From Nostoc sp. CENA543 (GTDB lineage: Bacteria; Cyanobacteriota; Cyanobacteriia; Cyanobacteriales; Nostocaceae): 64,000 nt of DNA. A program made the position numbers and the translations under genes. The DNA is taken from the NCBI RefSeq assembly GCF_002896875.1, contig NZ_CP023278.1:3348001-3412000 (forward strand). The letters run 5' to 3'. Below, in pieces: positions 6,528 to 34,959 of the stretch; the stretch's first letter is position 1; each line of letters begins with the position of its first letter. The notes below the pieces were generated by a model. It had not been told where the DNA came from, did no database searches, and saw only the letters and a program-made list of their open reading frames with translations.

Positions 6528-7229
6528 TTATTTCTTTTTGTTCCAAGGTAAGGCGTAAGTCCAAGGTAATTTTCTCACGGTGAAGGGACAATCAATAATG
6601 CAGATGGGGGGATATTCTGCACCGGGAGCTAAACCTGCTCTGATTTCCGATAACCGCAGGACAAGTTGTAGCGAAAATCCTAATTCTTTGCCTCTATTCA
6701 TGAAATCGCCATACATTTTCTTTTGTGGTGGCCCGCCTTTTTGTAAACCACTAATATTCATAAGCGGTTTTTTTACTGTATAAACCCCTGTTTCTTTATC
6801 CCGTTCAAATAAGTCCTCGGCGGTGATATTTTCTGTCAATGTTTTCTTGGGAACTATCAGACTAGGACTTTGAGATATAGCCAAGTCACGGGTTAAATCT
6901 GGTGATTTTCTAATGACTCGGCATGATTTATTATTGAGGATTAAAGAGCTATTATCCCAGTCTACATAGATGGCTAAATCATCAGATTTATTCTCAATTG
7001 TCATTGAGAGTTCTTTGAGTTCATCTATCGGCTCTGATGCTTTAAATTTAAAGTTGACACTAATTTTTCCGTCTAGACCTTGCTCTTTCAGCTTGTCGTC
7101 TACCTCACCTTTTTTAAATTCATATTTAATCCGATCATCAACGGATTCAACCATTAAATTAAAGACGTAAGCAACTCCAAGAATATAAAGAGTTAATACT
7201 ACTAAATTTTGGTCACTATTTGTAGTCAT
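6528..7229 (-). CDS. Membrane-anchored protein of unknown function
   Basis: The 233-residue protein starts with a short polar segment and one hydrophobic helix (about residues 9-26, VVLTLYILGVAYVFNLM), followed by a mixed alpha/beta soluble part. This looks like a single-pass anchored protein. Notable stretches are KFKASEPIDELKELSMTIEN, the predicted strands LAIYVDWDNSSLILNNKSC, and a basic end, PWNKKK. No catalytic motif was recognised. The pattern of a beta-sandwich stating 'stiff' values such as VDWDNSS is suggestive of a structural or binding domain, but this is inference. The neighbours (rnpB and corA) give no functional hint. Confidence 0.6.
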   Translation of the reverse strand: MTTNSDQNLVVLTLYILGVAYVFNLMVESVDDRIKYEFKKGEVDDKLKEQGLDGKISVNFKFKASEPIDELKELSMTIENKSDDLAIYVDWDNSSLILNNKSCRVIRKSPDLTRDLAISQSPSLIVPKKTLTENITAEDLFERDKETGVYTVKKPLMNISGLQKGGPPQKKMYGDFMNRGKELGFSLQLVLRLSEIRAGLAPGAEYPPICIIDCPFTVRKLPWTYALPWNKKK

Positions 7230-7255
7230 ATTTTAAAAAATTATAAGACTTGTGT

Positions 7256-7316
7256 GTACACCAATCCCCAATACCCAATACCCAATCCCCAGTCCCCAAT
7301 CCCCAATCCCCAACCC
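7256..7316. repeat. Heptad array (CCCCAAT/CCCCAGT)
   Basis: About eight CCCCAAT-type units lie between corA and the unknown membrane-anchored gene. Confidence 0.88.
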
Positions 7317-8462
7317 TCATTCCCGCTTAATGCTGGTGGAATTTTCTAACCAACCCCGTTGCCAGAATAAAAATAATAAACCAAAACCGATGAATCCCAT
7401 GACGGCTAGACAAAGTGGATAACCCCAATACCAATTCAGTTCGGGCATATTATATGGCGATTTATCGGTATTGAAGTTCATACCGTAAATACCTGCAATA
7501 AAAGTTAGGGGAATAAAGATAGAGGAAACTACTGTGAGTAGCTTCATCACTTCATTCATTTTGTTACCGACGGCTGAGAGATACACATCCATCAAGCCAG
7601 ATGCTAGCTCTCGGTAAGTTTCTACCATATCCATGACTTGGACTGCATGGTCGTAGCAATCCCTTAAATAAATTTGTACATCTTCACTAATTAAGTCACT
7701 GCGATCGCGTATTAAAGCATTAATCGCGTCCCGTTGTGGCCAGATAGCACGGCGTAATTGCAATAATTCTCGCCGCAGTTGGTAAATTTTTTGTAGGGTT
7801 TTGCGGGTAGGTTTAGCGATTACTTCTTCTTCTAAATCTTCTAATTGTTCACCGTAACGCTCTAAAACCGGAAAAAAGCCGTCAACAATAGAGTCTAGTA
7901 AAGCATAAGCTAAATAATCTGTGCCTTGCTTGCGAATAATTCCTTTTCCTCTTTCAATTCTGACTCTCACACCCTCAAAACAATCATGTTCTGGTTCTTC
8001 TTGAACTGTGAGCAGATAATATTTACCTAAAATTAAACTGACTTGTTCGCTATAAAAACCATAGTCTTTTTCTTTAGGGACTACCATCCGCGCTATAAAT
8101 AGTAGTTGGTCATCATAATCTTCGACTTTCGGACGCTCCGAGACATTGACCACATCTTCTAAAACCAGAGATGATAATTCAAAGATTTTTCCCATTCTTT
8201 CTAAAATGTCCTGATTACCTAAACCCTGGACATCTACCCAAGAAACAGATTCTTGGTCAAGATAGGGAATACATTCTTCTGGGGTTGCTACTTGTTGACG
8301 AATAAAACTAGTTTGGTTGTAGTCTATTAAATAAATAGTTGGTGGTGGAGCATCTGCATCAATGATGATTGTTCCTGGTAGAGTTCCTGGGTAGTGATAA
8401 AATTCATCCCTACGGGATCTCATGGACTCTTGGCGGCGCAGTTTTTTGAGCATTCTAACCAT
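7317..8462 (-). CDS. corA: Magnesium/cobalt transporter CorA
   Basis: CorA is a pentameric Mg2+ (and Co2+/Ni2+) channel of the inner membrane. The 381-residue protein has a long cytoplasmic N-terminal alpha/beta domain, an extended stalk helix (LREQL-like segments such as QLEDLEEEVIAKPTRKTLQKIYQ are too long to quote whole), and two C-terminal membrane helices: LLTVVSSIFIPLTFIAGIYG and the segment after NWYWGYPLCLAVMGF. The family signature YGMNFN, which forms the channel entrance, follows the first helix. The C-terminus is short and basic. An alternative start at the fourth codon (MLKK) is possible. The gene is monocistronic, with a heptad array just downstream. Confidence 0.94.
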   Translation of the reverse strand: MVRMLKKLRRQESMRSRRDEFYHYPGTLPGTIIIDADAPPPTIYLIDYNQTSFIRQQVATPEECIPYLDQESVSWVDVQGLGNQDILERMGKIFELSSLVLEDVVNVSERPKVEDYDDQLLFIARMVVPKEKDYGFYSEQVSLILGKYYLLTVQEEPEHDCFEGVRVRIERGKGIIRKQGTDYLAYALLDSIVDGFFPVLERYGEQLEDLEEEVIAKPTRKTLQKIYQLRRELLQLRRAIWPQRDAINALIRDRSDLISEDVQIYLRDCYDHAVQVMDMVETYRELASGLMDVYLSAVGNKMNEVMKLLTVVSSIFIPLTFIAGIYGMNFNTDKSPYNMPELNWYWGYPLCLAVMGFIGFGLLFLFWQRGWLENSTSIKRE

Positions 8463-28585: not shown

Positions 28586-29902
28586 GTGCTGGTGTTAGAG
28601 TACAAAATCAAAGGTACAAAGTCGCAGTATCAATCTATAGACGAAGCTATTAGAACTACGCAGTTCATTAGAAATAAAGCTATTCGTTACTGGATGGATG
28701 CACCAAAAGAAGCGCTCATGAATAAAGTCGCTCTTAATAACTACTCAACAGCACTACGCAAAGAGTTTAAATTTGTAGAAGAACTTAACTCAATGGCTTG
28801 TCAATCTGCAACCGAAAGAGCATGGTCAGCTATTGATAGATTTTACGGTAATTGCAAATCTAAAGTTCAAGGCAAGAAAGGATATCCGCGTTTTCAGAGA
28901 GACAATCGTTCTGTTGAATATAAGACTTCTGGATGGTCACTACATCCCACTAAACGACGTATTACCTTCACTGATAAAAAAGGCATAGGTGAAGTTAAGT
29001 TACTCGGTAAGTGGGATATTCACACTTACCCAGTTAAGTCAATTAAGCGGGTTCGGTTAGTCAGAAAAGCAGATGGGTACTATTGTCAGTTTGCAATTAA
29101 AACTGAACCATTGAGTGAATCCAGAATTGCTGATGGTGAGATTGGTTTAGATGTTGGTTTGGAATATTTCTACTCTGATTCCGATGGATATCATGAACCC
29201 AATCCCAGGTTCTTAAGGAAAGCAGAAACATCAATTAAACACGCTCAACGTCAGATTTACAAAAAGGAGAAAGGTAAAAACAAACGACGAAAAGCTAGGC
29301 AGAAATATGCTCGGAAGCACTTAAAAGTAAGTAGACAACGGAGTGAACACGCTAAGAGAATAGCTCGTAACGTATGCAAGGTTAACGCCTTAGTCGTCTA
29401 CGAAGATTTAAGGGTGAAGAACATGGTGAAAAATCACTGTCTTGCTAAATCAATTAATGATGTTAGCTGGGGCTTGTTCCGTCGTTGGTTAGAATATTTT
29501 GCAATCAAGTTTCAGACAAAACTTGTTGCTGTCAATCCTAGAATGATACCATTTCACGAAAAATCTGATACAGATGTAAACCCTAAAATCCTTGCTACAT
29601 CTAAGTTTTTTAATTGCGAATTGCGAATTGCGAATTGCGAATTGTGAATTGGTATGACATCTCAAAAATGTAGTGATTGTGGTGCAATAGTCAAAAAATC
29701 TCTTTCAACTCGTACCCATAAATGTAGTTGTGGATGTGAGCTACAAAGAGATGTGAATGCTGCAAAAAATATTCTGAATCGCGGCATCGCTAGGGATGGG
29801 CAGTCCCAAAGTAACGCTACTGGACTAGCAACCTCTACTCTACTTGGGGAAACCCTGGTTGAGCAAGTAGCTAGGGTGAAGGTAGAATCCCCTCGGCTTT
29901 AG
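28586..29902 (+). pseudogene. tnpB: tnpB of IS200/IS605-type element, split by a MITE-like insertion
   Basis: Two open stretches in the same frame (353 residues to a TGA at 29645, then 82 from 29654) together form one TnpB. TnpB is a guide-RNA-directed DNA nuclease. The RuvC residues are all present: Asp189 in GLDVG, Glu273 in VYEDLRVKNM, and Asp in LQRDVNAAKNI of the second part, which also has the zinc finger CSDCG and CSCGC. Removing the 111 bases 29547-29657 gives VNPR-M-TSQKCSDCG, the usual TnpB sequence, and a 401-residue protein. Therefore a 108-bp element with TGA duplication broke it. The 5' start is GTG at 28586, preceded by AAAGGGGG. Read as is, the first protein lacks the C-terminal catalytic Asp. 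Confidence 0.88.
29547..29654. mobile_element. 108-bp MITE-like insertion inside tnpB
   Basis: The ends TACCATTTC and GAATTGGTA are imperfect inverted repeats (8 of 9). The flanking triplet TGA is present at 29544-29546 and 29655-29657. The 3' part is a run of AATTGCG heptads (29612-29645) that produces the in-frame TGA stop. The insertion (element plus one TGA, 111 bp) keeps the frame. Confidence 0.8.
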
Positions 29903-30055: not shown

Positions 30056-30472
30056 ATGAATATCAAAACTATGCTGTCGGCTCGGTTTTTGTTAATGCTG
30101 AGTCTTACGGTTCCTACTATGATGTTGTCTACAATAGCTGGAGCCAAAGCCCAACAAGCTGAACCAGGCCAAGTGCAAGTCCGACAAAAACAGCCTTTTA
30201 TTCAAGATACTTTCCGCCGCGATACTTTATTAGATTTGCATAAATCGCCCGTGTTTAGTAACGATGGTGGTACAGGTAAGGAAGCATCCGATAAAGGTAA
30301 AGATGCCTCTGATAAAGGTTCTGATAACAAAGAAGCCTGTGATAATCCCTGTGGTAGTCATTTAAATTCTAGAGACCCAGTGATTTTACCAGCAGATAGA
30401 TTACTTCTGCCTGCTCAATTACAGAATATTCGTTCTAAGTCCTTACTTAAAGGCAGCAACCCGATTTTCTGA
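30056..30472 (+). CDS. Secreted protein with Lys/Asp/Ser-rich repeats
   Basis: The ATG at 30056 is preferred over a TTG at 30029, because it opens a proper signal peptide (MNIKTMLSARFLLMLSLTVP, cleavage near AGAKAQQ at about residue 32). The 138-residue product then has PGQVQVRQKQPFIQDTFRR, and a low-complexity part (KEASDKGKDASDKGSDNKEA) followed by CDNPCGSH and a C-terminal region, LPADRLLLPAQLQNI. The Lys, Asp and Ser residues in the repeats are the type used for side-chain ring formation in graspetides. It is followed after about 116 bp of heptad repeats by the ATP-grasp pair. A role as the substrate of those enzymes is speculative; a Sec signal peptide on a peptide precursor would be unusual. 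Confidence 0.6.
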   Translation: MNIKTMLSARFLLMLSLTVPTMMLSTIAGAKAQQAEPGQVQVRQKQPFIQDTFRRDTLLDLHKSPVFSNDGGTGKEASDKGKDASDKGSDNKEACDNPCGSHLNSRDPVILPADRLLLPAQLQNIRSKSLLKGSNPIF

Positions 30473-30476
30473 ATTA

Positions 30477-30570
30477 GGGGTGTAGGGGTGTAAGGGTGTA
30501 GGGGTGTAAGGGAAAATTCTACCCAGTTACCAATGCCCCATACCCAATGCCCCATACCCCATGCCCATCT
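30477..30570. repeat. Heptad arrays (GGTGTAG/GGTGTAA, then CCATACCCAATGCCC)
   Basis: Two unit types between the secreted protein gene and the ATP-grasp genes. Confidence 0.85.
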
Positions 30571-30588
30571 CATGAATAATTCAAGACT

Positions 30589-31377
30589 ATGGATTTAATC
30601 ATTGTAGGCGATCGCAGCGATCGCTTTTCTACGGAAGTTCTCGATTTAGTGCAGCAAGCTGGTTACACTGCTGATATTTTCGATGTCTGTGATGCGGCGC
30701 GGTTGTTTTCTATCGGTATGGAAGATGGGCAGGTTTTTGTTACTCCTGATATCCCAATTTTACTGAGAATTCAACCACCTTCTACTATTAGAAGCAGTTT
30801 CGATGATTCATTTATTTATGGTGAATGTCTCTCCACTTTATGGGCTGCTGCCACACTCAATAAATCACCTGTAATTAATCGTCCCACACCCCATAGTATT
30901 TGGGGCAAAACTTCTTATTCTTCTGTATTAACGGCTGTACGTGCAGGCTATCCAGAAAACGATATTGAAATATTTTCTTCGCAAATTTTACCGCCGCACA
31001 CACCCCAAGTTAACAAACAATGGTACGTTCAAGATTTAGTTACCTATAACACCACAGCTTACCCCAATATTCCCCAAGGAGCAGGGCCTTATCGGGGACG
31101 CTGGGCAGATATTGACCCTGGTTATGAAATTGTAGTGGTTTTGGAAGATCAAGCTTGGCGTTCTACTAACGTTCCCCTAGAACATTTAGCACTTGAACAA
31201 CAAAGTATTAACTTAATTAGAAATTTAGATTTAACGTTTGCTGCTATTACTTGGAGCATTTCCGAAAATTTAGAAACTGCAACTATTGCGCGTATTGATT
31301 CTTTCCCCTTAATGGAACAAATTCAATTTGTTTGGCCTGTTTTTGCTCCTGCACTTTTAGAGGTTTTATTCCCATGA
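30589..31377 (+). CDS. Degenerate ATP-grasp-like protein
   Basis: The 262-residue protein can be aligned by eye with the ATP-grasp core of its downstream neighbour: VINRPTPHSIWGKTSY matches the linker entering the fold, and LIRNLDLTFAAITWSISENL matches AAFGLQFAGWDFKVTED. The Mg-binding ExN motif (LEANP in the neighbour) here reads ARIDS, and the ATP-binding Lys and Arg positions are not conserved. It therefore looks like an inactive ATP-grasp homologue that may pair with the active protein. Its TGA overlaps the next ATG (ATGA at 31374-31377), which implies translational coupling. A pseudoenzyme partner in one complex is inferred. Confidence 0.65.
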   Translation: MDLIIVGDRSDRFSTEVLDLVQQAGYTADIFDVCDAARLFSIGMEDGQVFVTPDIPILLRIQPPSTIRSSFDDSFIYGECLSTLWAAATLNKSPVINRPTPHSIWGKTSYSSVLTAVRAGYPENDIEIFSSQILPPHTPQVNKQWYVQDLVTYNTTAYPNIPQGAGPYRGRWADIDPGYEIVVVLEDQAWRSTNVPLEHLALEQQSINLIRNLDLTFAAITWSISENLETATIARIDSFPLMEQIQFVWPVFAPALLEVLFP

Positions 31378-33005
31378 TTTACGCCATTGGTATTGACTCA
31401 GACCGCACTTTTCGCCATTTCATCCGTCAAACTCATCAGCGTGGAATTGAGGTACGAGCCATTAATCTCCGCGAAGTGATTCTTTCTGGAGACTGGCGGT
31501 TAACGCTTCCTGATGATGGTATGAGTTGGGTGAGTGTAGGGGATAAGAAATTGCCTCTAGACCCCAATGGTGCTTATTACTGCCGAATTATCGACCTTTC
31601 TAGTGTGCAGTCAGACATGGCGATGGCGATGCGTTGGCGGAGTTTATTAGCTGCGCTTTGTGTGTGGCTAGAACATATCCCTGGTGTTGTGATTAACCGT
31701 CCTGGTGGCCGTACTGATAATTCTTCTAAACCATTACATGAATATTCTTTGCAGTCTTGGGGTTTTAATGTTCCTCCTAGTTTGACTAGTTCTGATCCCG
31801 AACTGTTAGCGGCTTTTGCGAGTTTTGGTAAAACTATTGTAAAACCTGCGTCGGGTATTCGTGCTGATAGTCGCCTAGTGACACCAGAAGAGTTTTTTGA
31901 TTTTCATCCATCCCAAGGGCCAGTACATCTGCAAAGATATGTTGCTGGTGCAGATGTCCGCGCTCATGTCGTTGGGGATCAGGTTCACGCGGAAATTATT
32001 AATTGTCCCCAGATAGATTATCGCCGTTCTTATCAAGAAGCTCAATATTCTCCTTGGGAATTACCAGATGCTTTAAATAAACAAATTATTCAAGCTACGG
32101 CTGCTTTTGGTTTACAGTTTGCTGGTTGGGATTTTAAGGTGACAGAAGATGAGCAATACTGGTGTTTAGAAGCTAATCCCATGCCGGGTTACGATGGTTA
32201 TGATATTAGAGCCGATGGCAAAATTACTGAATCACTTTTAGCATTACTAACTCAACAAAATACTGTTAAGCAATTTCCAAATGACACTCTGATTACAGAT
32301 GAAATATTGGCAGAAATTCAATGCAGTGAAATTTATGAGACTATTCAAAGCTTAAAAGCACATTGGATTACTAGAGGACAAGAACCCGCTAGCTTTTTCA
32401 CATTGGGAACAGCATCCTATTTAGATTTTCTCAACCTACCTGACTTTGCAGGTGATTATTACAATAGAGCCAAACAATATAATCTACTGTTACAAAAACA
32501 TTTTAGTTGGCTTTATGAATTAGTTAAACAATCTCTAGAGACACAACTACAAGCACCAGTTAATTATCATCCTGATTTTGCTCTCCCAGGATTTCATATT
32601 TGGGAAACACCCGCAATTTTTACCAAATCAACAGCATCCGTACATTTTGATTTACAATATCAAAATCTTCATTGGCAAGATAAAGAAAATATAGATTTTC
32701 AACGCACTATTTCTTTTACTCTGCCCATCAAACTACCGCATTTAGGTGGGGGTTTGAATGTTTGGGATTTAACTTATGACGAATATATTAATGGTCGTGA
32801 CCCTAATTATTTAGGTGATGTGGAAGTGATGAAACGTTTTAGAAATAAAACTGTTCATCCTTACAATATAGGTAAGATTGTAATACATGGTGGACATTCA
32901 CTGCATCAAATTGCTGCGATCGCTCAAGTTGATCCTGGTGATGAGCGCATTACTCTACAAGGTCATGGCATATATGACAATGGACAATGGCTACTCTATT
33001 GGTAA
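31374..33005 (+). CDS. ATP-grasp ligase fused to a Fe(II)/2-oxoglutarate-oxygenase-like domain
   Basis: The 543-residue protein starts at 31374. The first 300 residues are an ATP-grasp enzyme: VVINRPGGR, TIVKPASGIRADS (Lys157 for ATP), VHLQRYVAGADVRAHVVG (Arg196), GWDFKV (Asp253) and CLEANPMPG (Glu266, Asn268, Mg ligands). RimK/MvdD-type enzymes use this fold to make amide or ester bonds on peptide side chains. From about residue 390 a second domain has the 2OG-Fe(II) oxygenase pattern: SVHFDLQY (His424, Asp426), a beta-rich core with LPHLGGGLNVWD, then HGGHSLHQ (His508 as the third iron ligand) and DERITLQGHG (Arg525 for 2-oxoglutarate). The fusion of ligase and hydroxylase in one chain is unusual. 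The substrate is unknown. Confidence 0.78.
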   Translation: MIYAIGIDSDRTFRHFIRQTHQRGIEVRAINLREVILSGDWRLTLPDDGMSWVSVGDKKLPLDPNGAYYCRIIDLSSVQSDMAMAMRWRSLLAALCVWLEHIPGVVINRPGGRTDNSSKPLHEYSLQSWGFNVPPSLTSSDPELLAAFASFGKTIVKPASGIRADSRLVTPEEFFDFHPSQGPVHLQRYVAGADVRAHVVGDQVHAEIINCPQIDYRRSYQEAQYSPWELPDALNKQIIQATAAFGLQFAGWDFKVTEDEQYWCLEANPMPGYDGYDIRADGKITESLLALLTQQNTVKQFPNDTLITDEILAEIQCSEIYETIQSLKAHWITRGQEPASFFTLGTASYLDFLNLPDFAGDYYNRAKQYNLLLQKHFSWLYELVKQSLETQLQAPVNYHPDFALPGFHIWETPAIFTKSTASVHFDLQYQNLHWQDKENIDFQRTISFTLPIKLPHLGGGLNVWDLTYDEYINGRDPNYLGDVEVMKRFRNKTVHPYNIGKIVIHGGHSLHQIAAIAQVDPGDERITLQGHGIYDNGQWLLYW

Positions 33006-33158
33006 TCAATTAGGAACTTCCAATTTAGGGGACTTCCAATTAAAAAAATAACCAATCGCTTGCAGGCAGGGGGGCAGGGAGCAGGGGGAGTAAAGAAAAA
33101 TCTCATTAAATGAATTGGGTAATTTATTCCCTGGAATTCCCTGACTAATTAGTATCAC

Positions 33159-33189
33159 AGCTTTTGTTTGGAGAAACTACCCAAAAGCT
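33159..33189. promoter_or_regulatory. Inverted repeat upstream of the ABC exporter gene
   Basis: AGCTTTTG and CAAAAGCT (8-bp perfect arms, 15-bp spacer) lie 25 bp before the start. Either an operator or a hairpin. Confidence 0.4.
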
Positions 33190-33213
33190 GGTAGCGTCTA
33201 ACAAAGAACAATA

Positions 33214-34959
33214 TTGTTTGGACGTGACAGCTTGAAAACTCGCTCTAATTACTGGCAACTGCTACCTTATATTAGACCACAGTGGCAGAATATTATTAAG
33301 GGATTAGTCGGCATTGTAGGATATGTGCTGGCAACTTTGACGTTAATTAATTTTGCAGGCAAGTTAGCCGATCCTTTTGGTCAAGGTAATGTGATAGCGA
33401 TCGCTCAATTAGCAGCCATACTAGGTTTAGTGTTCTTAGTTAGGGGTGTTTTTCAATCTGTACAAGACATTTATATGTCAAAAGCCGCCTTAAGAGTGGC
33501 TTTTCATCTCCGCAAGCAGACATACGCCCATTTACAAACATTAGATTTAAGTTACTTTGAAACTGCCAAAGCTGGTGATTTATCTTACCGCCTCACCGAA
33601 GATATTGACCGCATCGGGGAAGTTGTTAATAAACTGTTTCACGATTTTTTACCCTGTGTGTTGCAGTTGATTGCCATTCCTATCTATATGATTTACTTGA
33701 ATTGGCAACTCACCTTAGCTACAGTCATCATTGCACCATTGATGGGGATTTTAATTGGTTGGTTTGGGGAACGCTTACGTAAATATTCCCTGAAAAGCCA
33801 AAATCGTGTCTCTGATTTATCTGCGATTCTCACGGAGGTTTTTAGTGGAATTCGCCTAGTAAGGGCGTTTGCGGCGGAGAAATATGAAATTACTAGATTT
33901 AGTCGGGAAGCAGAACGCAGTTTTCAAGCTAAATACTCAGCCGAACGCTTAAAGGCTGTGCAGATACCGATTATCGGGTTTTTAGAAGCCTTGAGTGCCT
34001 TATCCTTAATTTTGGTGGGAACGTGGCAAATTCAACAACGGAATTTAACAGTAGCAGAGTTTTTTAGTTACCTAGCCGCAGCCGGTTTATTAATTGATCC
34101 CATCGGTCATGTTACCAACAACTACAACGAATTTAAGCAAGGTGAAGCTTCTGTAGACCGAATTTTTGAATTGATGGCGATACAGCCAACGGTGACAGAA
34201 AAACCCAAGGCAATAAATTTACCACCAGTCCAAGGGAAGGTGGAATACCGCCATATTACTTTCGCCTATAAACCAGGAGAACCCGTTTTAAGAGATATTA
34301 GTTTATTCGCGATGCCAGGGGAAGCGATCGCCCTTGTGGGTGCGTCTGGTGCAGGTAAAACCACCTTCGTTAATCTCCTACCGCGTTTTTATGACCCCAC
34401 AACAGGCGAAATTCTGATTGATGGTACAGACATTCGAGATGTTTCCTTAGAGAGTTTACGCCGACAAATTGGCATAGTTCCCCAAGAAACCATCATGTTT
34501 TCGGGGACTGTAACCCAAAATATCGCCTTTGGGCAAGATATTTATGATTTAGATGCGGTAAAAGCCGCAGCGAAAATTGCTAACGCCCATCAATTTATTA
34601 CCCAACTACCAGAAGGTTATGAAACCTGGGTAGGTGAGAGGGGTGTTAATTTATCTGGTGGACAAAGACAAAGAATTGCCATAGCTCGTGCTGTATTATT
34701 GAACCCAAAGATTTTGATTTTAGATGAAGCGACATCTGCTTTAGATTCGGAGTCTGAAGCCTTAGTACAAGAAGCCTTAGAAAGACTCATGCAGCAGCGT
34801 ACAGTATTTATTATTGCTCACCGTTTAAGTACAGTGAGAAAATGCGATCGCATCCTAGTTTTAGAACGTGGGCAAATCGTAGAATCAGGCACACACGAAG
34901 AACTATTAGCCCTTGAGCGTCGCTATGCTAAGTTTTATACACAGCAGTTTAGTCAGTAG
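33214..34959 (+). CDS. ABC exporter, fused membrane and ATPase domains (MsbA/McbF type)
   Basis: This half-transporter has six membrane helices (about residues 20-310) and an ATPase domain with GASGAGKTTF (Walker A), LSGGQRQRIAIARAV (signature), ILILDEATSALDSE (Walker B) and the switch His (AHRL). It works as a dimer to export lipids, peptides or other amphiphiles. The frame starts with TTG at 33214 (MFGRDSLKTR), and a second TTG at 33232 in frame (LKTRSNYW) is also possible; there is no ATG for some distance. The domain has no C39 peptidase. It follows the ATP-grasp fusion by 208 bp and may export its product, or may be independent. Confidence 0.9.
   Translation: MFGRDSLKTRSNYWQLLPYIRPQWQNIIKGLVGIVGYVLATLTLINFAGKLADPFGQGNVIAIAQLAAILGLVFLVRGVFQSVQDIYMSKAALRVAFHLRKQTYAHLQTLDLSYFETAKAGDLSYRLTEDIDRIGEVVNKLFHDFLPCVLQLIAIPIYMIYLNWQLTLATVIIAPLMGILIGWFGERLRKYSLKSQNRVSDLSAILTEVFSGIRLVRAFAAEKYEITRFSREAERSFQAKYSAERLKAVQIPIIGFLEALSALSLILVGTWQIQQRNLTVAEFFSYLAAAGLLIDPIGHVTNNYNEFKQGEASVDRIFELMAIQPTVTEKPKAINLPPVQGKVEYRHITFAYKPGEPVLRDISLFAMPGEAIALVGASGAGKTTFVNLLPRFYDPTTGEILIDGTDIRDVSLESLRRQIGIVPQETIMFSGTVTQNIAFGQDIYDLDAVKAAAKIANAHQFITQLPEGYETWVGERGVNLSGGQRQRIAIARAVLLNPKILILDEATSALDSESEALVQEALERLMQQRTVFIIAHRLSTVRKCDRILVLERGQIVESGTHEELLALERRYAKFYTQQFSQ

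Follow-up and report, generated by a model that had tools for sequence, protein, structure and literature searches.

The closest described relative of the system reported here is corallotide, which stands for graspetide group 15 and was reported in 2026 from Corallococcus exercitus; in that system CorB forms lactams between Lys and Asp within KxxxD motifs, the lysine so cross-linked is hydroxylated by CorC at its delta carbon, and CorB binds CorC and needs it for full activity (PMC13097080). The same source calls group 15 restricted to Corallococcus, gives macrolactone linkages as usual in graspetide chemistry, and draws on a data set of 43 groups, of which groups 34 and 35 often have long repeating precursors (PMC13097080). 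A second study assigns graspetide leaders a Phhx(1,2)h motif and mentions truncated, inactive ATP-grasp proteins in branch 8, without a predicted precursor there (PMC8939145). Here we analyse a locus in a 64,000-nt stretch of Nostoc sp. CENA543 DNA (contig NZ_CP023278.1, positions 3,348,001-3,412,000; hereafter the window) that encodes a small secreted protein (the precursor), an inactive ATP-grasp homologue (P1) and a fusion of an ATP-grasp ligase to a 2-oxoglutarate/Fe(II) (2OG-Fe(II)) oxygenase (P2). Because matching gene sets occur in unrelated soil bacteria, the set appears to be an undescribed branch of the graspetide family of modified peptides; no title or abstract among the matches listed in open-licence literature on graspetides and their relatives describes it. 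Some actinobacterial members may already be listed as predictions in the data set of the corallotide report (PMC13097080).

An earlier note on this DNA had proposed one locus of four genes, the fourth encoding an MsbA-like ATP-binding cassette (ABC) exporter. Reading the open reading frames of the window places all of them on the + strand where the note had put them, the ATG of P2 overlapping the stop codon of P1 as ATGA:

30056..30472, + strand: precursor protein of 138 residues, starting at ATG 30056 (signal-like N-terminus, leader motif, KxxxD core, C-terminal follower)
30056..30154, + strand: signal-peptide-like stretch, residues 1-33, of Sec type by eye, from hydropathy
30194..30223, + strand: leader motif PFIQDTFRRD, residues 47-56, with the same spacing in 24/24 precursors
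30263..30346, + strand: core, residues 70-97, with KEASD (75-79), KDASD (82-86) and KEACD (92-96)
30428..30469, + strand: C-terminal follower ending SLLKGSNPIF, with ends somewhat alike in relatives by eye
30589..31377, + strand: P1, pseudo-ATP-grasp partner of 262 residues with a predicted graspetide-ligase fold and replaced metal-binding residues
31374..33005, + strand: P2, fusion of ATP-grasp and 2OG oxygenase, 543 residues
31374..32267, + strand: N-terminal half of P2, a predicted live ATP-grasp graspetide-type ligase (D253, K255, E266 and N268 invariant in 20 rows)
32274..33005, + strand: C-terminal half of P2, a predicted 2OG-Fe(II) oxygenase with WelO5-like fold (H424-x-D426...H511...R525)
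33214..34959, + strand: MsbA-like ABC protein, from Pfam/NCBIfam

The hydrophobic N-terminal stretch and the KEASDKGKDASDKG repeats that the note ascribed to the secreted protein are present. The system nevertheless differs from the one proposed earlier, as its conserved unit consists of three genes without the ABC exporter.

Of 386 genomes sampled from the window's phylum, that of the window among them, 6 carry the full-length fusion, and all six keep the order secreted protein-P1-P2, so that the secreted protein does stay with the ATP-grasp pair, a linkage on which the earlier note had made its proposal depend; the surrounding genes differ outside the genus. Four of the six genomes share one genus and are therefore not independent events, and the other two belong to other genera, at 47-65% identity across the three proteins. 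A search of the 386 genomes with the precursor alignment returned precursors in exactly the same six; 6 of the 12 rows of that alignment come from these genomes and match by construction, the informative part being that 0 of the other 380 genomes match. Purifying selection acts on the precursor, on P1 and on each half of P2, with ratios of non-synonymous to synonymous substitution rates of 0.05-0.18 in 16 comparisons.

A non-exhaustive scan of named genomes with two peptide patterns yielded 21 loci, 12 of them cyanobacterial (Trichormus, Nostoc, Calothrix, Dulcicalothrix, Dendronalium, Amazonocrinis and Cyanosarcina), eight actinobacterial (four Streptomyces, Streptosporangium, a Streptosporangiaceae bacterium, Intrasporangium and an Ilumatobacteraceae metagenome-assembled genome (MAG)) and one from a Rhizobium MAG. 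P1 is present in 21/21 (one a fragment), the oxygenase lies in the same locus in 18/21, and the precursor adjoins the enzymes in 18/21; at L059 precursor and oxygenase sit side by side on another contig of the same assembly. The oxygenase profile matched 1/396 genomes sampled from the Streptomyces phylum, namely the centre, and 2/398 from the Rhizobium phylum, the second being G957 beside the centre there, and the gene set is therefore rare. This is a real, rare and phylogenetically scattered three-gene pathway. P1 had 0 matches in 72,556 plasmid records, and two peptide patterns revealed no ligase relatives in viral contigs. Plasmid carriage of P2 was considered and rejected, as 23 of the 72,556 records match without any alignment exceeding 80% of the query, and the 12 listed span 30-50% of it, the ATP-grasp part only.

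The secreted protein, which has no significant Pfam or NCBIfam match, is very likely a ribosomal precursor. We compared it with all precursors found beforehand, near copies included, giving 24 sequences in total (15 cyanobacterial, 9 others); an Amazonocrinis copy (L089) was found later and stands outside this count, and the cyanobacterial alignment holds 12 of the 15 rows, the near copies L048-L050 being left out. A leader motif, [PTA][FY][IL]-x4-R-x-D, recurs at identical spacing in all 24 precursors, across three phyla; the pattern was written after the sequences had been seen, and a freer-spacing form, likewise fitted afterwards, is expected in 0.04 of 24 sequences after shuffling. In actinobacterial precursors the motif begins at position 4 or 12, in the one from Rhizobium at 18, and in the cyanobacterial ones at 45-49. 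All 15 cyanobacterial precursors have a hydrophobic N-terminus (15-mer hydropathy of 1.8-2.6 in the first 45 residues) that ends AxA-like by eye, and the corresponding maximum in the nine others is 1.03. Judged by sequence, the cyanobacterial protein looks like an actinobacterial-type precursor preceded by a signal peptide. The leader motif resembles the Phhx(1,2)h motif of graspetide leaders (PMC8939145).

In most cyanobacteria the core takes a (KDASDKG)-like form, elsewhere a [K-D/E-x]n-like one, with 3-4 KxxxD/E motifs in the 15 cyanobacterial precursors (three KxxxD in the window) and 12-37 in the nine others, the 37 being reached in a Streptomyces relative. At least three lysines have D/E at +4 in each of the 24 sequences, D/E at +1 and +4 are the sole offsets from Lys that reach at least 0.5 in 24/24 cores, and K+4 pairing in the nine long cores exceeds that in shuffled sequences (p at most 0.0005). 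Among five close strains (ten non-independent pairs summed) we counted 82 synonymous and 0 non-synonymous differences in the core, 45 and 7 in the leader, and 134 and 110 in the follower, whose ends in relatives, such as LLRRRGVVI and LMKSGPII, are somewhat similar by eye. The precursor thus has what is expected of a graspetide precursor, a conserved leader and a core of acceptor and donor residues that is invariant in the close strains. With corallotide it has in common the KxxxD motif repeated in a large precursor; a leader motif common to three phyla and a signal-like cyanobacterial N-terminus are differences (PMC13097080).

The N-terminal half of P2 is an ATP-grasp ligase in which D253, K255, E266 and N268 are invariant in 20/20 rows (near copies and the truncated L052 left out of the alignment). 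Its Pfam matches are weak, RimK being the best, and NCBIfam gives a weak TIGR04187 match; across the alignment TIGR04187 matches 20/20 rows, at best with E 1.7e-28. PsnB of plesiocin, about 25% identical, is the best match by both sequence and predicted fold, and together with MdnC, MdnB and AMdnB of microviridin it supplies the fold and the closest sequence relatives of this half; a Foldseek search with the P2 model had only ATP-grasp-fold rows in the top 50 listed. The core distinguishes the system from these ligases' own, consisting here of K-D/E repeats, and the microviridin core motif, reportedly TxKYPSDxx, was not seen by eye in the 24 precursors. In a tree that also contained 26 other ATP-grasp rows (25 different sequences, some on long branches), the 20 ligase rows group on a single branch with support of 100/99. 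Of four other ATP-grasp genes listed for the window's own genome, three were placed on the tree, all outside the clade, and no second copy was found in that genome. A ligase of the type that matures ribosomally synthesized and post-translationally modified peptides (RiPPs) hence stands beside the precursor in the 18 loci noted above. The graspetide likeness seen by the earlier note is upheld by the PsnB match; the note did not take the secreted protein, the probable precursor, for a substrate.

P1 carries T, R and D at the positions aligned to D253, E266 and N268 of the live enzyme, bearing out its description as an ATP-grasp homologue without the metal motif. In 23 aligned rows (L049, L052 and L061 left out) the first column is never D, the second never E, and the third is N in five. 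None of these rows has a Pfam match at E 0.01, DUF498 reaching E 0.12 for the window P1, for which NCBIfam gives nothing significant either; the P1 profile aligns with the live ATP-grasp, and the predicted fold matches PsnB, as does that of the ligase half. The microviridin enzymes MdnB and MdnC are reportedly both live, whereas one of the two ATP-grasp proteins is dead here. Corallotide has the beta-lactamase-like CorD as partner (PMC13097080); the constant partner in our 21 loci is P1 with its ATP-grasp fold. By analogy, P1 would be the counterpart of the partner proteins described for corallotide, and it might complete a ligase dimer. Another pair of degenerate-looking and live ATP-grasp genes lies in cyanobacterium G237 (L090:2231-5539), preceded by a 495-residue protein whose end contains KEWKEIKEWKEVKE; it is possibly a sister system.

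The C-terminal half of P2 stood up to the structural comparison with 2OG oxygenases by which the earlier note wished it judged: its predicted fold matches WelO5 with an intact H-x-D...H...R site, and the metal-binding Asp is invariant in 21/21 aligned rows (near copies, L039, L073 and L074 left out). The WelO5 model PF22814 matches 16/21 rows at E 0.1, and the window C-half scores 21.4 of 27 bits against it, below the Pfam cut-off. G166 of WelO5 is, we assume, the Gly in place of the metal-binding Asp. This residue is seen in the PDB title of 5iqu; unlike the WelO5 halogenases, the oxygenase here has H-x-D instead of the Gly, and its substrate is presumably a peptide.

Ligase and oxygenase are a single polypeptide in the window and L041-L050 and separate genes in other phyla: the two frames overlap or almost touch in L053-L058, and L060 and L061 have the order oxygenase-precursor-P1-ligase, with the oxygenase upstream of the precursor. 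Fusion of two domains in one lineage where others have them side by side is a classic sign of joint action, and this arrangement suggests that the two enzymes act together. Corallotide likewise combines a TIGR04187-type ligase with a 2OG-Fe(II) oxygenase, and its two enzymes form a complex, where here they are fused or come from genes that overlap or almost touch; CorC belongs to PF13640, whereas the oxygenase here matches WelO5 instead, CorA and CorC being compared by description only (PMC13097080).

L054 has a second, free-standing oxygenase copy (6750-7475, - strand) that keeps H-x-D...H...R and lacks His residues aligned to H505 and H508, and G957 has two tandem oxygenases of the family (L073:8723-10166) with no ligase or K-rich precursor seen in 20 kb. 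Four of five Streptomyces/Streptosporangium loci carry, upstream of the precursor, a luciferase-like monooxygenase gene, possibly for a further tailoring enzyme (assigned by PF00296 at L053 and by similarity at the others):

L053:7618-8556, luciferase-like monooxygenase
L054:7695-8630, luciferase-like monooxygenase
L055:7650-8570, luciferase-like monooxygenase
L057:7326-8471, luciferase-like monooxygenase

In the Ilumatobacteraceae MAG a YcaO gene (PF02624; L074:130-1116) lies upstream of oxygenase and precursor. The best viral match of the P2 model in BFVD is an uncharacterised 274-residue protein of Pithovirus LCPAC102 (27% identity, E 4e-19).

We consider it likely that these genes encode a graspetide-like RiPP pathway that makes Lys-Asp/Glu (i,i+4) lactams and then hydroxylates them; by analogy, we infer the bond type, the site and the order of steps. 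Linkage, co-occurrence, the leader motif, the invariant core, the retention of catalytic residues in P2 and their loss from P1, and the predicted folds are the directly observed basis. The ATP-grasp half of P2, with inactive P1, would bind the leader motif, presumably as a heteromeric complex, and join Lys side chains to Asp/Glu four residues on, giving side-chain lactams, three of them in the window protein (at KEASD, KDASD and KEACD). The oxygenase half, held to the ligase by the fusion, would hydroxylate the cross-linked segment, most likely at lysine. Full conversion has a predicted mass change of 3 x -2.02 Da. Since no signal peptide is apparent by eye in P1 or P2 and the ligase depends on ATP, modification would precede export and take place in the cytoplasm, the compartment that holds ATP; the modified protein would then leave by the Sec pathway via its own signal peptide, so that no dedicated ABC exporter would be needed. 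As for the role of the product, an extracellular structural or surface protein is our guess.

Several results weigh against this pathway. Against the curated graspetide model TIGR04187, which requires 350 bits, the window ligase reaches 79, and RimK remains its best Pfam match; the P1-to-ligase profile probability is 73.6%, and the fold matches of P1 have root-mean-square deviations of 5-8 A. PF13640, the family of CorC, is absent from the matches of the 21 oxygenase rows at E 0.1. L051 has lost the oxygenase half, L052 has truncated enzyme genes and no oxygenase, its genome yielding no precursor, and the Amazonocrinis precursor (L043; 88% identical) is not beside the enzymes but on another contig of the same assembly. 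The window core has three K+4 pairs against 1.2 expected in the shuffle (p ~0.08; 0.03-0.09 over the 15 cyanobacterial cores), and D/E is as frequent at +1 as at +4; we favour +4 on the strength of the relatives with long cores and of the precedent in Corallococcus.

Esters could arise at Ser residues of the cyanobacterial core, and the same precursor and enzymes might produce Ser-Asp/Glu esters or mixed ester/amide rings, with the oxygenase acting on Asp. S78 occurs in 12/12 aligned rows and S85 nearly so, and macrolactones are usual in graspetides (PMC13097080), but across the 24 precursors Ser is irregular in the core and Lys and Asp/Glu are regular (for example KDGKDFKDYKD), which makes such esters unlikely. 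RimK as best Pfam match raises another alternative, a RimK-like ATP-grasp that adds free amino acids to the Asp/Glu side chains of a K/D/E-rich protein, the oxygenase working on the carried group. Attachment of amino acids to a carrier protein is known in the LysW/ArgX style; RimK/LysX models match in NCBIfam and PDB sequences, and ArgX-LysW structures are among the fold matches. PsnB, MdnC, AMdnB and PruB, however, rank above RimK and ArgX by their best chains, and a carrier would leave the strict Lys-Asp/Glu pairing of the core unexplained, so that we regard it as distinctly improbable, although linked amino-acid genes may lie in the flanks, whose annotation was selective.

The reading of the earlier note, in which secreted protein, ATP-grasp pair and MsbA-like exporter act together as one locus, we hold to be very improbable indeed. 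The exporter is found by Pfam/NCBIfam on the same strand, 208 bp from the fusion, yet a search of the fetched flanks at E 1e-100 found a close copy near 1/21 named loci (L042, Nostoc sp. CMAA1605; 98.6%, 2.4 kb downstream, behind a 665-residue gene). No close copy lies in any of the five stretches fetched for relatives L034-L038, and the precursor has its own signal-like N-terminus. The exporter was thus rejected as part of the conserved set.

Compared with the loose list of neighbours that it replaces, lactam formation and hydroxylation by three genes give a defined pathway whose substrate is named and whose predictions can be counted, three cross-links in the window protein and up to 37 in the Streptomyces relative. 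We know of no other graspetide family with a pseudo-ligase partner and a Sec-secreted product, and this would, if true, be the first. A wider interpretation, which we advance tentatively, is that bacteria of three phyla use a dead/live ATP-grasp pair and an oxygenase to make ribosomal Lys-Asp/Glu polymers whose lysines may be tied to acids at +4 and then hydroxylated, a ladder-like material reminiscent of collagen and exported by Sec in Nostocales-type cyanobacteria. The natural ligase-oxygenase fusion could serve for making stapled, hydroxylated peptides, and the role of a dead ATP-grasp under strong selection is open to direct testing. If the chemistry holds, oxygenated Lys-Asp graspetides, reported from Corallococcus only (PMC13097080), would extend to Cyanobacteria, Actinomycetota and Pseudomonadota.

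Upstream of the precursor lies a gene resembling, by eye, a TnpB-type transposase (28586-29902, + strand), in two frames and near a short AATTGCG tandem repeat; for relatives L034-L036 the ORF listing has no counterpart at this position. A promoter and terminator scan gave 11 promoter-like sites against 8.9 expected and one terminator-like site against 2.7 expected.

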